From assembly GCA_020073165.1 (NCBI GenBank), contig JAIQFP010000009.1, positions 62,001-126,000 of the forward strand: DNA of 64,000 bases. Direction: 5' to 3'. Of the stretch, positions 29,465 to 55,831 are shown piece by piece; the first letter of the stretch is position 1, and each line of letters begins with the position of its first letter. This DNA is from Terriglobia bacterium (GTDB lineage Bacteria; Acidobacteriota; Terriglobia; Terriglobales; Acidobacteriaceae). The notes below the pieces were generated by a model. That model was not told the DNA's origin, made no database searches, and saw only the letters and a list, made by a program, of their open reading frames with translations. A program made the translations under genes and the position numbers.

Positions 29465-29574
29465 GTCAGGCATCGGTCCCGCGCGACGTCTTCCCGCCAA
29501 CCCCGCCAGGTCCGGAAGGAAGCAACGGTAACGGGCTCTTGCGTGTGCAGTGGGTCGCCGGTGCCTGGCTTTTT
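29465..29574 (+). ncRNA. ffs: Signal recognition particle 4.5S RNA
   Basis: The short bacterial SRP RNA: one long hairpin whose ends pair (GTCAGGCATCGG with CCGGTGCCTGGC). Its tip holds the diagnostic SRP motif CAGGTCCGGAAGGAAGCAAC (domain IV, the Ffh-binding site, with the GGAA tetraloop). A run of five T follows the closing stem, so the RNA ends at its own intrinsic terminator. About 110 nt, the normal size. It acts with Ffh and with FtsY (16007-16963). Confidence 0.95.
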
Positions 29575-35079: not shown

Positions 35080-35676
35080 TCAGCGCTCTGTGCGGCTTAA
35101 GGTTTTCGCTCGTGTCTGCCCAATTTCAGCGAACGTCATGTCCTTGGCCGGGCTTCGGGTGCGGCGTTTCCACGCGAAGAATAGCCCGGCATAGGTGTCG
35201 GTGATGTACTGGCTGGGAAGGATTCCCAGTCGCTTCGCGGTCTGATCGATCCAGCGCGCTGGGCCTTCGATCTCGCCGAAGTTGCCGATTGGTGTCTCGT
35301 CCATCACGACCTGGCCTTGGCTGTCAGCCCACTCAGCGCGAAACTTCTCGTACCGGAAGGTGGGGGAGAAACCCAGGGCGCGCAGAATGGCGTCCATCTT
35401 CGGACCGTCGCCGACTTGGGTCTGGGTTTCCACGCGGGTCTTGTGGCGTCCTGTTCTCCCCTTGGCTTTGTGGGTGAGCAACCATTCCGATCCGTACTTG
35501 CGCAGGCGGAGCAGATCGCCGCGTTTGCGGAGAGGCTGGCCGGGAAGATCGTAAAGCGTGTTCATTTCGTGGGTGCGCCGCGTGATCTGCCGAAAGTGCG
35601 CGGAGCGCAGCTTGCGGGCGAGGCCGCGCAGGTCATCCACGCGGAATTTGATCTCGACTTCCTTTTTCGAGGACAT
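35080..35676 (-). CDS. CYTH-domain protein (class IV adenylate cyclase/triphosphatase type)
   Basis: 198 residues from ATG 35676. The N-terminal EVEIKFRV is the ExExK signature of the CYTH triphosphate tunnel; further basic and acidic residues (LRLRKYG, LTHKAKG, ETQTQVGDG, DETPIGNFGEIEG) alternate on the strands as expected. Members include class IV adenylate cyclase, thiamine triphosphatase and inorganic triphosphatase; the sequence alone does not say which. The frame runs 30 codons further upstream but lacks conservation there. Confidence 0.85.
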   Translation of the reverse strand: MSSKKEVEIKFRVDDLRGLARKLRSAHFRQITRRTHEMNTLYDLPGQPLRKRGDLLRLRKYGSEWLLTHKAKGRTGRHKTRVETQTQVGDGPKMDAILRALGFSPTFRYEKFRAEWADSQGQVVMDETPIGNFGEIEGPARWIDQTAKRLGILPSQYITDTYAGLFFAWKRRTRSPAKDMTFAEIGQTRAKTLSRTER

Positions 35677-35694
35677 GTGTCGCCCGTATGAAAA

Positions 35695-35769
35695 TCCCGA
35701 ACCGCAAAGATCGCAAAGAAATGCCGCAAAGGACGCCAAGCAGACCAGATTCCTGAGACCTGACACCTG
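35695..35769. repeat. Intergenic repeat containing CGCAAAGAAATGCCGCAAAG
   Basis: The gap between the CYTH gene and the DedA-rhodanese gene contains ACCGCAAAGATCGCAAAGAA and GCAAAGGACGCC. The complementary string GCGTCCTTTGCGGTTT occurs between yajQ and the prenyl synthase gene (about 38788-38803). Looks like a third dispersed repeat family. Confidence 0.4.
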
Positions 35770-36738
35770 CTAGCTGAACGTCGGCAGTTTGACTAGGTCT
35801 TCGCGGGGCACCGACTCCAGCGGTTCGCCGGCTTTCTTCCACGCGGCCAGGCCGCCGACGATCACGAACGCGTTGAATCCCTTTTCCCGCAGCAGGTGCG
35901 CCACCCGGGCGCTGGTCGCTTCCCGCGCTCAAGTACAGTACAGGTAAATGTCTTTGTCCTTGGGCAGAGTCTTCAGTTCCTCGGCCAGATTGTTCGGCTC
36001 GATGCGGATGGAGCCTTTGATGCGAGCCGATCCGGCGTCGTAGTAGCCGTGGCTGCGGACATCCACGAGGAGCATCTTGCCACGCCCTTCCGATGCCAGC
36101 TTGTGCGCCAGTTCCTCCACCTGTACCCGCGGCACCACGCGATAGATCGCGTGTTTACGATAGAGCCAGACTCGATACACGATGTAGGCGATGAGCACCA
36201 CCAGCAGCACTTCCTCGAAGACCCGCCCTGCGGTCTGGAAGCCGCGCGTGATGGCAGCCAGAAAATCGCGGAACACATAACCAAGGCCGAAGTAGGCCGA
36301 GGTGTAGAGAGTTGCCCCAGCCAGATCGAGGCGCAGGAACTGCTGCGGACGCATCTTCATGCTCCCGGCCAGCGGCGGTGCCATGGTATTGACGCCGGGG
36401 ATGAACTTGGCGAGCACCAGAGTAATCTTGCCGCGTTTGTAGAAAGATTCCGCTGAGCGCAGGATGCAGGTCTCGGGATTCGCCGAGACCTTGCAAAGAA
36501 GGCCGAGCAGCGCCCATCCCATGGAGCGTCCCAGCAAGTACAACACCGAGTCGCCCAGCAGCATGGCGCACAGGGCGAGAAGCCACACCACCGGGCTCAG
36601 GATTCCGGACGCTACGGCTGCGCCACCGGCTACTAGCGCTAACGCCGCCGGGCAGGGGAGTCCCACGGCCTCGGCGAAGACAATCCCGGTGACCAGGAGG
36701 TATCCGTGGCGGGCGATCAGAGCCAAAAGGTAATTCAT
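35770..36738 (-). CDS. DedA-family membrane protein fused to rhodanese, probable selenoprotein (TGA = Sec270)
   Basis: 322 residues if the in-frame TGA (35929-35931) is read as selenocysteine. Residues about 1-195 are a DedA/SNARE-associated membrane domain with several helices and the family motif FIPGVNTMAPPLAG. Residues about 205-318 are a rhodanese domain (LLVDVRSHGYYDAGSARIKG). Its active-site loop reads Y-L-Y-C268-T-U270-A-R-E-A-T-S-A-R-V. After the TGA the frame stays open for 52 codons with the normal end of the fold (FVIVGGLAAWKKAGEPL) before TAG at 35770. A GC-rich hairpin with a CGGGU loop begins 16 nt after the TGA. The alternative is a nonsense mutation giving a 269-residue protein cut in the active site. 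Confidence 0.7.
35898..35931 (-). promoter_or_regulatory. Candidate bacterial SECIS element following the in-frame TGA
   Basis: On the minus strand the TGA (35931-35929) is followed by 16 nt and then the hairpin GCGCC-CGGGU-GGCGC (35912-35898). Its distance and its small G-rich apical loop resemble the fdhF SECIS of E. coli, where a short stem with a loop containing GGU binds SelB. The stem is GC-rich like its surroundings, so by itself it is weak evidence. Confidence 0.5.
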
Positions 36739-37757: not shown

Positions 37758-38747
37758 TTATTTCTCCCGTGCCACCACAAACTCCGGCGCCCACAACAGA
37801 GCGCGCTTGATTTCACTGGGAGGGAAGCTGCAGATAGCGTTGCGGGCCAGTTCGGCGTACTGCATGGCGCGGGCGTTGGCGGCCTCCAGCGAACCGTAGC
37901 GGTTGAGGACTTCGAGGATCTCCGCGTGGGTGACGCCATCGAAAGCCCGCTCTCGCAACACCGCCTCAATCAATCTCTTTTCCTGTGACGTGCAACGCTC
38001 CAGCGCGTGGATGACCGCCATGGTGACTTTGCCTTCGCGCAGATCGCTGGCTACCGGCTTGCCCAGCACGCTCTCGGAAGCGGTCAGATCGAGCACATCG
38101 TCCACAATCTGGAAGGCCATGCCCAGGTCGCGTCCGTACTGCGCCAGGCTCTCCTCTTGCTCCGGCGTTGCGCCGCCTAGGATTCCACCCATGCGCATGC
38201 ACACCGAGAAGAGGCAAGCCGTCTTGCGGAAGATCAGGTCGAAGTACTCGTCGAGCGAGATGAGCCTGCCCAGCTTTTCCATCTGCAGCAGTTCGCCTTC
38301 GACCATCTGTTGGGTGAGCTCGATTAGCGTATCGAGAATGCGGAAATTGCGCTCCTGCACTGCCACCTTGAAGGCCTGCATGTACAGCCAGTCGCCGGCC
38401 AGCACACAGCGGGAGTTGCCCCATTGCGTGTTGGCCGCGGGTCGCCCCCGCCGGGTTTGGGCCTCATCAATAATGTCGTCGTGCACCAGCGTGGCGGTGT
38501 GAATGATCTCGACCACCGCGCCTAGTTTGATGGCTCCGCGTCCCTCGTAATTCAACAGCTTTGCCGAAAGCAACAGCAGCGCCGGACGAATGCGCTTGCC
38601 GCCGCCGCCACGGAGATATTCGCCAATCTCGGTAATGGCTTCGACGTTTGAGACGGTGTCACGCCCGAACTCGCGTTCGATGGCTGACAGGTCTTCGCGT
38701 AACAGTTCGAAGACTTCCTTGCCGTTGATGGTGGCTGGGCTGCTCAA
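37758..38747 (-). CDS. Trans-polyprenyl diphosphate synthase (IspB-like)
   Basis: 329 residues of an all-helical prenyltransferase. The first Asp-rich motif DDIIDEAQTRRG and the second DDVLDLT bind the Mg-diphosphate substrates. KRIRPALLLLSAKL matches the family. It probably makes a C40-C50 chain for menaquinone or ubiquinone. It is the last gene of the minus-strand run metG-tatD-yajQ. Confidence 0.92.
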   Translation of the reverse strand: MSSPATINGKEVFELLREDLSAIEREFGRDTVSNVEAITEIGEYLRGGGGKRIRPALLLLSAKLLNYEGRGAIKLGAVVEIIHTATLVHDDIIDEAQTRRGRPAANTQWGNSRCVLAGDWLYMQAFKVAVQERNFRILDTLIELTQQMVEGELLQMEKLGRLISLDEYFDLIFRKTACLFSVCMRMGGILGGATPEQEESLAQYGRDLGMAFQIVDDVLDLTASESVLGKPVASDLREGKVTMAVIHALERCTSQEKRLIEAVLRERAFDGVTHAEILEVLNRYGSLEAANARAMQYAELARNAICSFPPSEIKRALLWAPEFVVAREK

Positions 38748-55755: not shown

Positions 55756-55831
55756 GGCCAGGTAGCTCAGGTGGTAGAGCGCAGCCCTGAAAAGGCTGGC
55801 GTCGGCGGTTCAACTCCGTCCCTGGCCACCA
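55756..55831 (+). tRNA. tRNA-Phe (GAA)
   Basis: A 76-nt cloverleaf: acceptor GGCCAGG/CCTGGCC, D-stem GCTC/GAGC, anticodon stem CAGCC/GGCTG around CTGAAAA (anticodon GAA), five-base variable loop, T-stem GGCGG/CCGTC. The CCA end is encoded. Confidence 0.97.

Follow-up and report, generated by a model that had tools for sequence, protein, structure and literature searches.

The fusion gene and its in-frame TGA

How should one read a gene whose frame is interrupted by a TGA in the active-site loop of an enzyme domain and then runs on until that domain is complete? The question is raised by a gene on the reverse strand of the window (the whole 64 000-nucleotide stretch of Terriglobia DNA that was analysed), whose product joins a DedA (VTT) membrane domain to a C-terminal rhodanese domain. 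The features concerned are the following, where 'rows' are aligned homologous loci with TGA or a Cys codon at column 270.

35770..36738, reverse strand: DedA(VTT)–rhodanese fusion gene, 322 residues including the putative Sec270, with its TAG at 35772–35770
36277..36642, reverse strand: VTT/DedA membrane domain, residues 33–154 (Pfam PF09335, 41.9 bits; gathering cut-off 33.9)
35830..36087, reverse strand: rhodanese domain, residues 218–303, with the TGA inside it (Pfam PF00581, 48.9 bits; cut-off 22.2; fit to 3gk5)
35935..35937, reverse strand: codon of Cys268, which starts the rhodanese active-site loop C-T-U (Cys in 95/95 TGA rows and in 77/79 Cys rows, the other two being gaps)
35929..35931, reverse strand: in-frame TGA, read here as selenocysteine 270 (TGA or Cys in 102/107 and 80/80 homologous loci)

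The frame opens with the ATG at 36738, runs for 269 codons to the TGA at 35931–35929 and continues for 52 sense codons to the TAG. The earlier note had described a single in-frame TGA directly after Y-L-Y-C-T, with U270 two residues past Cys268 and 52 open codons beyond it; frame and translation bear this out, and the Pfam Rhodanese match crosses the TGA. The surrounding motif, YLYC-T-U-AREATSARVA, places a C-x-U (C268 and U270) in the active-site loop of the rhodanese (YLYCTU). The first cysteine of this loop is the catalytic residue of rhodaneses, and ordinary rhodaneses have a single catalytic cysteine.

We modelled the extended protein with AlphaFold2 from a 40-row alignment, 39 rows of which were chosen from the best 80 of 550 loci. 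The model has a mean pLDDT of 83.2 and a pTM of 0.60, and because of the latter the placing of the DedA domain relative to the rhodanese domain is uncertain. The modelled rhodanese part (residues 202–310) superposes on 3gk5 with a Z-score of 15.1 and an r.m.s.d. of 1.7 over 99 residues (VIA-align). C268 lies directly after the strand formed by residues 263–267, which we take to be the catalytic place of rhodaneses. All of the PDB matches listed fall on the rhodanese half (VIA-align, residues 200–313; Foldseek, 50 of 562 rows), with no DedA structure among them, and are uninformative for the DedA half. Against viral structures, Foldseek had no hit with E ≤ 0.001; the best-ranked entries, with E-values of 0.014–0.047, were rhodanese proteins and SNARE-associated Golgi (VTT-type) proteins.

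One rival reading is that the TGA is a true stop, as the standard code would have it, so that the protein ends after 269 residues and the remainder of the rhodanese is decaying; a truncated membrane domain might still work. Such a stop would delete a helix, a strand and a second helix (residues 274–302) from the modelled rhodanese domain. Taken by itself, the fact that 52 codons stay open says little for read-through, and it is because of the comparison with relatives that this stretch and the hairpin described below rise above chance. Beyond the TGA, the protein shares 50 of its 52 residues with that of a same-genus genome, at a dN of 0.018 against a dS of 0.36, and dN is well below dS in 11/11 comparisons (Nei–Gojobori). 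The 52 codons past the TGA thus appear, from these substitution patterns, to evolve under protein constraint. Together with the recurrence of the same TGA in relatives, given in the next section, this makes a true stop very improbable.

The TGA column in related genomes

Homologous loci were gathered in two overlapping sets. The first combined 41 genomes (our own and its relatives) with 396 genomes of the phylum, the phylum search being run at E ≤ 1e-25 with at most five scored candidates per genome, and yielded 107 fusion loci (the fusions of G364 and G257 are split or partial). Column 270 of this set holds TGA in 44 loci, Cys in 58, Ser in four and Arg in one. TGA is kept in fusions down to about 31% identity, and the five Ser/Arg loci show both low identity and a low profile score. 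The second set was drawn from named genome records, mostly Terriglobia metagenome assemblies; its best 80 of 550 relatives have TGA in 56 cases and Cys in 24, with no other residue. Since the loci of this set were selected for similarity to the window protein, and since one of the two peptide patterns behind it has Cys at the Sec column, its TGA:Cys ratio is no census; records very near our own genome may also be missing from it. The records labelled Gammaproteobacteria or Steroidobacteraceae in this set (L226, L228, L232, L237 and L241) all have Cys, and close Cys orthologues reach 69% (L175) and 66% (L176) identity to the window protein.

The alignment at this column had been proposed as a check, with the expectation that related proteins often carry a second cysteine there. 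This expectation held: Cys is found in 58/107 and 24/80 loci, and TGA or Cys in 102/107 and 80/80. For the tree and for the cysteine counts we used 179 rows (95 TGA, 79 Cys, four Ser and one Arg), seven duplicates and L235 having been dropped. A quick tree of these rows, built without column 270, implies at least nine switches between Sec and Cys, in a direction that it does not let us read.

A sequencing or assembly error that turned a Cys codon into TGA would need one TGC-to-TGA change only, and Cys is what many relatives have. The earlier note had named a resequenced base change that removes the TGA as an outcome that would refute its claim. Many separate assemblies share the TGA, at the 44/107 and 56/80 loci given above, which speaks against a base error, as does the contrast between TGA and Cys rows at the hairpin loop (see below). 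We regard the probability of this explanation as negligible.

A hairpin downstream of the TGA

The hairpin with a CGGGU loop that had been reported to begin 16 nt past the TGA is present in the sequence.

35898..35912, reverse strand: SECIS-like hairpin GCGCC-CGGGU-GGCGC, assigned from its sequence, codon choice and pair conservation

A 16-nt spacer (35928–35913) is followed by GCGCC (35912–35908), the loop CGGGT (35907–35903) and GGCGC (35902–35898), which gives a 5-bp stem with its apical loop 21 nt from the UGA. The bacterial SECIS model set out in section 5 of PMC13188914 has a loop of 3–9 nt, a stem of 4–16 bp, a distance of 16–37 nt from the UGA, a G within the first two positions of the loop and an energy of at most −7.5. 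At 21 nt and 5 bp, with G in the first two positions of CGGGU followed by a further G, the hairpin lies inside the constraints stated in that section, its energy alone (−7.6 kcal/mol) being barely within the limit. Neither an Rfam search of the whole window nor one of 35840–35990 with E up to 10 matched a SECIS family; the latter gave one unrelated chance match.

Folding energy does not single out this hairpin. The 15 nt alone have a z-score of −1.45 against shuffles, of which 22/200 are as good, and the 48 nt from the UGA prefer a competing fold (−20.0, against a dinucleotide-shuffle mean of −20.2; z-score 0.08); several other rows also favour competing pairings. We therefore base the case on the choice of codons and on how TGA rows differ from Cys rows. 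We counted codons and pairs over distinct 48-nt stretches (90 TGA and 78 Cys rows, after exclusion of duplicates, of rows with Ser or Arg and of a single truncated locus); these rows are related, and their counts should not be taken as independent observations. The five core pairs are all formed in 80 of the 90 TGA rows and in seven of the 78 Cys rows, and the loop-start G followed by G or U in 88/90 and 9/78, respectively. The last figures are those that bear on the base error discussed above.

The same preference is seen in synonymous codons for identical residues. Ala277 is encoded by GCC in 87/87 TGA rows against 32/52 Cys rows, and Val279 by GTG in 82/82 against 25/46. Arg278 is encoded by CGG or CGT in 85/88 TGA rows, codons that put G-G or G-U at loop positions 2 and 3, whereas CGC, the commonest Arg codon of these genes (0.51), is used in 21/33 Cys rows. 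Synonymous resampling of a 24-nt stretch gave a mean z-score of −1.94 for the TGA rows and −0.38 for the Cys rows. There is little covariation within the stem (all pairs are formed in 80 rows, where 1000 shuffles give a mean of 75.8 and a maximum of 79), since its sequence is almost invariant; in L108 and L248, a C-G pair is replaced by U-A, with both sides of the stem altered. From these codon contrasts, the conservation of the hairpin does not seem to be explained by the protein sequence.

Two TGA rows, L233 and L234, have CGC and lack the usual hairpin; both could form a longer stem there, and the fold obtained for L233 has GUG as its loop.

Selenocysteine machinery and its co-occurrence with the TGA form

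Misreading of UGA as Trp or Cys is possible in general, whether the code has changed or an ordinary suppressor acts, and would likewise yield a full-length protein, free of selenium. We rejected a changed genetic code as the adjacent MetG, CYTH and PMT_2 genes all end in an ordinary TGA stop. Moreover, the non-TGA loci have Cys 82 times, Ser four times, Arg once and Trp not at all.

The genome itself (4.6 Mb in 35 contigs, completeness rated 100%) carries all four genes of the selenocysteine pathway that the earlier note had proposed to look for, a lack of selA, selB and selC having been named there as grounds against Sec. The tRNA-Sec scores 70.3 bits and is called tRNA-SeC with anticodon tca by ARAGORN, SelB scores 370.7 bits (cut-off 242), SelA 535.3 bits split over two pieces, and SelD 341.5 bits in two pieces. 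The last of these has a TGA of its own, in GUASK (L050), and a formate dehydrogenase-like frame has one in CNRTUHAP (L278; 653 bits, slightly below the cut-off of 666). The genome is therefore likely to have at least three Sec genes.

We then compared the presence of SelB with that of the TGA form in 86 genomes with a scored fusion, using a SelB list compiled by hand from profile searches. SelB was found in 41 of the 42 genomes with the TGA form and in four of the 44 without it. Fisher's exact p-value of 9.5e-19 would be valid only for independent genomes, and these are related. The phylogenetically independent pairs number only two when supported branches are required, or five when all branches are used; this does not suffice for a test, and the p-value should therefore not be relied upon. 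The sole TGA-form genome without a SelB match (G093) has a tRNA-Sec, and SelB is present without the TGA form in G020, G081, G106 and G257. Judging from these searches, lineages without the Sec machinery seem mostly to have Cys at position 270, with the hairpin no longer kept.

With SelA, SelB, SelC and SelD present and SelB accompanying the TGA form, a reading as Trp or Cys is highly unlikely. We conclude that UGA 270 is very probably read as selenocysteine, and the sequence comparisons strongly support a predicted 322-residue inner-membrane selenoprotein as the product of the gene.

Relation to known selenoproteins and DedA proteins

Among the 119 selenoprotein families of Table 1 in PMC13188914 (2026) are five rhodanese forms, including a CxU form 3 (NF041203) and a rhodanese/DsbD fusion-like protein. 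The DedA fusion is absent from that catalogue, and the term DedA occurs 0 times in the available text of the paper. This agrees with the earlier note, which knew of rhodanese-like selenoproteins and of no DedA fusion among them. Full-text literature searches, with most subscription papers and all preprints outside their scope, found no DedA–rhodanese selenoprotein. The architecture, very probably that of a selenoprotein, has no entry in the catalogue and is built from a known CxU rhodanese and a known membrane family.

The nearest curated relative is NF041203 (rhodanese_LYCAU, 'Rhodanese-like domain-containing protein form 3'), which shares the Cys-x-Sec rhodanese as listed in PMC13188914. It is the NCBIfam model that the window protein matches best (85.8 bits over residues 193–308; 81.5 in the genome search), but its 126 positions cover one rhodanese domain, to which the window protein adds the DedA membrane domain. 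The window protein lies below the cut-off of 115 bits, and no match in the 41 genomes exceeds it; because even this best curated model stays below threshold, automatic annotation is likely to truncate the fusion at the UGA. TsoB (NF045694), the rhodanese/DsbD fusion-like selenoprotein, resembles the fusion, by its name in the PMC13188914 table, in joining a rhodanese to a further part; its entry differs in the motif UxxxxU, with two Sec residues, and names no DedA.

Fusions of the same domain order are known outside the Acidobacteriota. Proteobacterial DedA/thiosulfate sulfurtransferase GlpE fusions (for example, Xanthomonas sacchari WP_043095768.1) share the DedA domain and the C-terminal rhodanese, and the five that we compared have Cys rather than Sec (CxC) and are 29–35% identical to the window protein. 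Pseudomonas aeruginosa PA1209 is described in the available text of PMC12893004 as DedA plus rhodanese, and by that description resembles the window protein in domain architecture. The DedA proteins of COG0586 are putative undecaprenyl-phosphate flippases, and the available text of PMC10127716 mentions rhodanese fusions in the group, with an unclear connection. These proteins share the VTT domain with the fusion, whose nearest NCBIfam DedA matches are UptA and PRK10847 DedA; they differ in being mostly single-domain, and stand-alone DedA proteins of related genomes lack the CX8C motif discussed below in 18/19 scorable cases. The two NCBIfam models of UptA, the undecaprenyl-phosphate flippase, score 44.8 and 21.1 bits, far below their cut-offs of 300 and 250, so that it is the family relationship that suggests a putative flippase role for the fusion.

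The putative Sec-rhodanese module also occurs in other settings. In G016, L074 (1–1845) joins a Na+/H+ exchanger domain (PF00999, 127 bits) to a C-terminal rhodanese with FCAU at the TGA; its hairpin, GCGCC-CGGGT-GGCGC, is identical to that of the window, and SelB of this genome is above the cut-off. Known from this one genome, L074 is likely to be a second membrane transporter with a Sec-rhodanese. Stand-alone rhodaneses of three relatives, G005, G028 and G029 (L055, L069 and L075), likewise combine YCTU at the TGA with a similar hairpin, and all score below the NF041203 cut-off.

A cysteine pair in the DedA half

The membrane domain has two cysteines of its own, in a CX8C motif.

36493..36495, reverse strand: codon of Cys82, first Cys of CX8C in the DedA half, conserved in the alignment
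36466..36468, reverse strand: codon of Cys91, second Cys of CX8C in the DedA half, conserved in the alignment

A further alternative accepts selenocysteine at position 270, and takes the protein to be a membrane-anchored sulfurtransferase or thiol oxidoreductase in which DedA is a mere anchor and transport is uncoupled. The stand-alone YCTU rhodaneses described above (L055, L069 and L075) indicate that the module works without DedA, and in L074 of G016 it is joined to the unrelated exchanger domain. Against this, the CX8C pair goes with the fusion: C82 and C91 occur together in 95/95 TGA rows, in 77/79 Cys rows (the exceptions being one gap and one Ala) and, with a CxC in the rhodanese loop, in 5/5 proteobacterial fusions fetched from plasmid records (of 23 listed hits spanning both halves), whereas a stand-alone DedA of the related genomes has it in one of 19 scorable loci (L275; 28 tried, nine unscorable). 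Four of the five Ser/Arg-270 paralogues have lost Cys91, the fifth having both cysteines. In addition, D63, K111 and G115 of the DedA domain are nearly invariant in the fusion rows. We consider an anchor-only role to be somewhat doubtful, and a functional coupling of the two halves to have about an even chance. The fact that the CX8C pair accompanies the fusion is a correlation; it suggests that the two pairs may work together, perhaps as a four-chalcogen relay.

Two of the closest stand-alone DedA proteins, L256 and L274, have His at both CX8C positions, where a metal site could take the place of a disulfide.

Proposed mechanism and significance

With selenocysteine as our preferred reading, the fusion would work as follows. 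In the mRNA, the UGA would be followed 21 nt on by the apical loop of the SECIS hairpin. SelB carrying Sec-tRNA(UCA) would bind this hairpin, and Sec would be inserted at position 270 in place of termination. The product would combine a DedA/VTT membrane domain with a C-terminal rhodanese in which C268-x-U270 replaces the single catalytic Cys. Most likely, C268 and U270 would form a fast selenol–thiol couple, active either in persulfide uptake and release or in the opening and closing of a selenenyl-sulfide bond, and could exchange the persulfide or the bond state with C82 and C91 of the membrane domain. In this way, the cell's thiol, persulfide or selenium status would be linked to membrane transport, with a phosphorylated polyprenyl lipid as a possible substrate. 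We hold a lipid carrier as the substrate to be less probable than the coupling itself.

The gene neighbourhood is of some interest for this last point.

37758..38747, reverse strand: polyprenyl diphosphate synthase, upstream neighbour (Pfam PF00348)
35080..35766, reverse strand: CYTH-domain protein, downstream neighbour with an ordinary TGA stop (Pfam PF01928)

On one strand, the genes run in the order MetG, TatD, DUF520, polyprenyl synthase, fusion, CYTH and PMT_2; a 118-residue gene on the same strand and a RidA-like gene on the opposite strand are also found in this neighbourhood. Among the best 80 of 550 loci, 46 have a polyprenyl synthase close to the fusion and on its strand, and 34 have a CYTH gene (within flanks of at most 4 kb, some of them cut by contig ends). 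The proximity of the synthase fits a lipid-carrier role, and may also reflect inherited gene order alone. Elsewhere, the window holds an ordinary small SRP RNA gene (29470–29567, forward strand) and an ordinary tRNA-Phe gene (55756–55831, forward strand).

A broader proposal, which we put forward as speculative and rather unlikely, makes the DedA–rhodanese fusions a separate class of membrane machine: their CX8C and CxC or CxU pairs would form a single relay, through which the transport of polyprenyl phosphate is coupled to persulfide or selenol chemistry. Sec would be the final relay residue in many Acidobacteriota, supplied by a portable rhodanese module (CxU plus SECIS) that is also found on its own and joined to an unrelated Na+/H+ exchanger.

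The selenoprotein proposed here would add a membrane architecture to the bacterial selenoproteome. It would also offer a handle on the role of the rhodanese domains in DedA proteins, which are thought to be undecaprenyl phosphate flippases in the available text of PMC10127716: Sec at the second active-site position, together with the linked cysteine pair of the DedA half, points to a redox or persulfide coupling.
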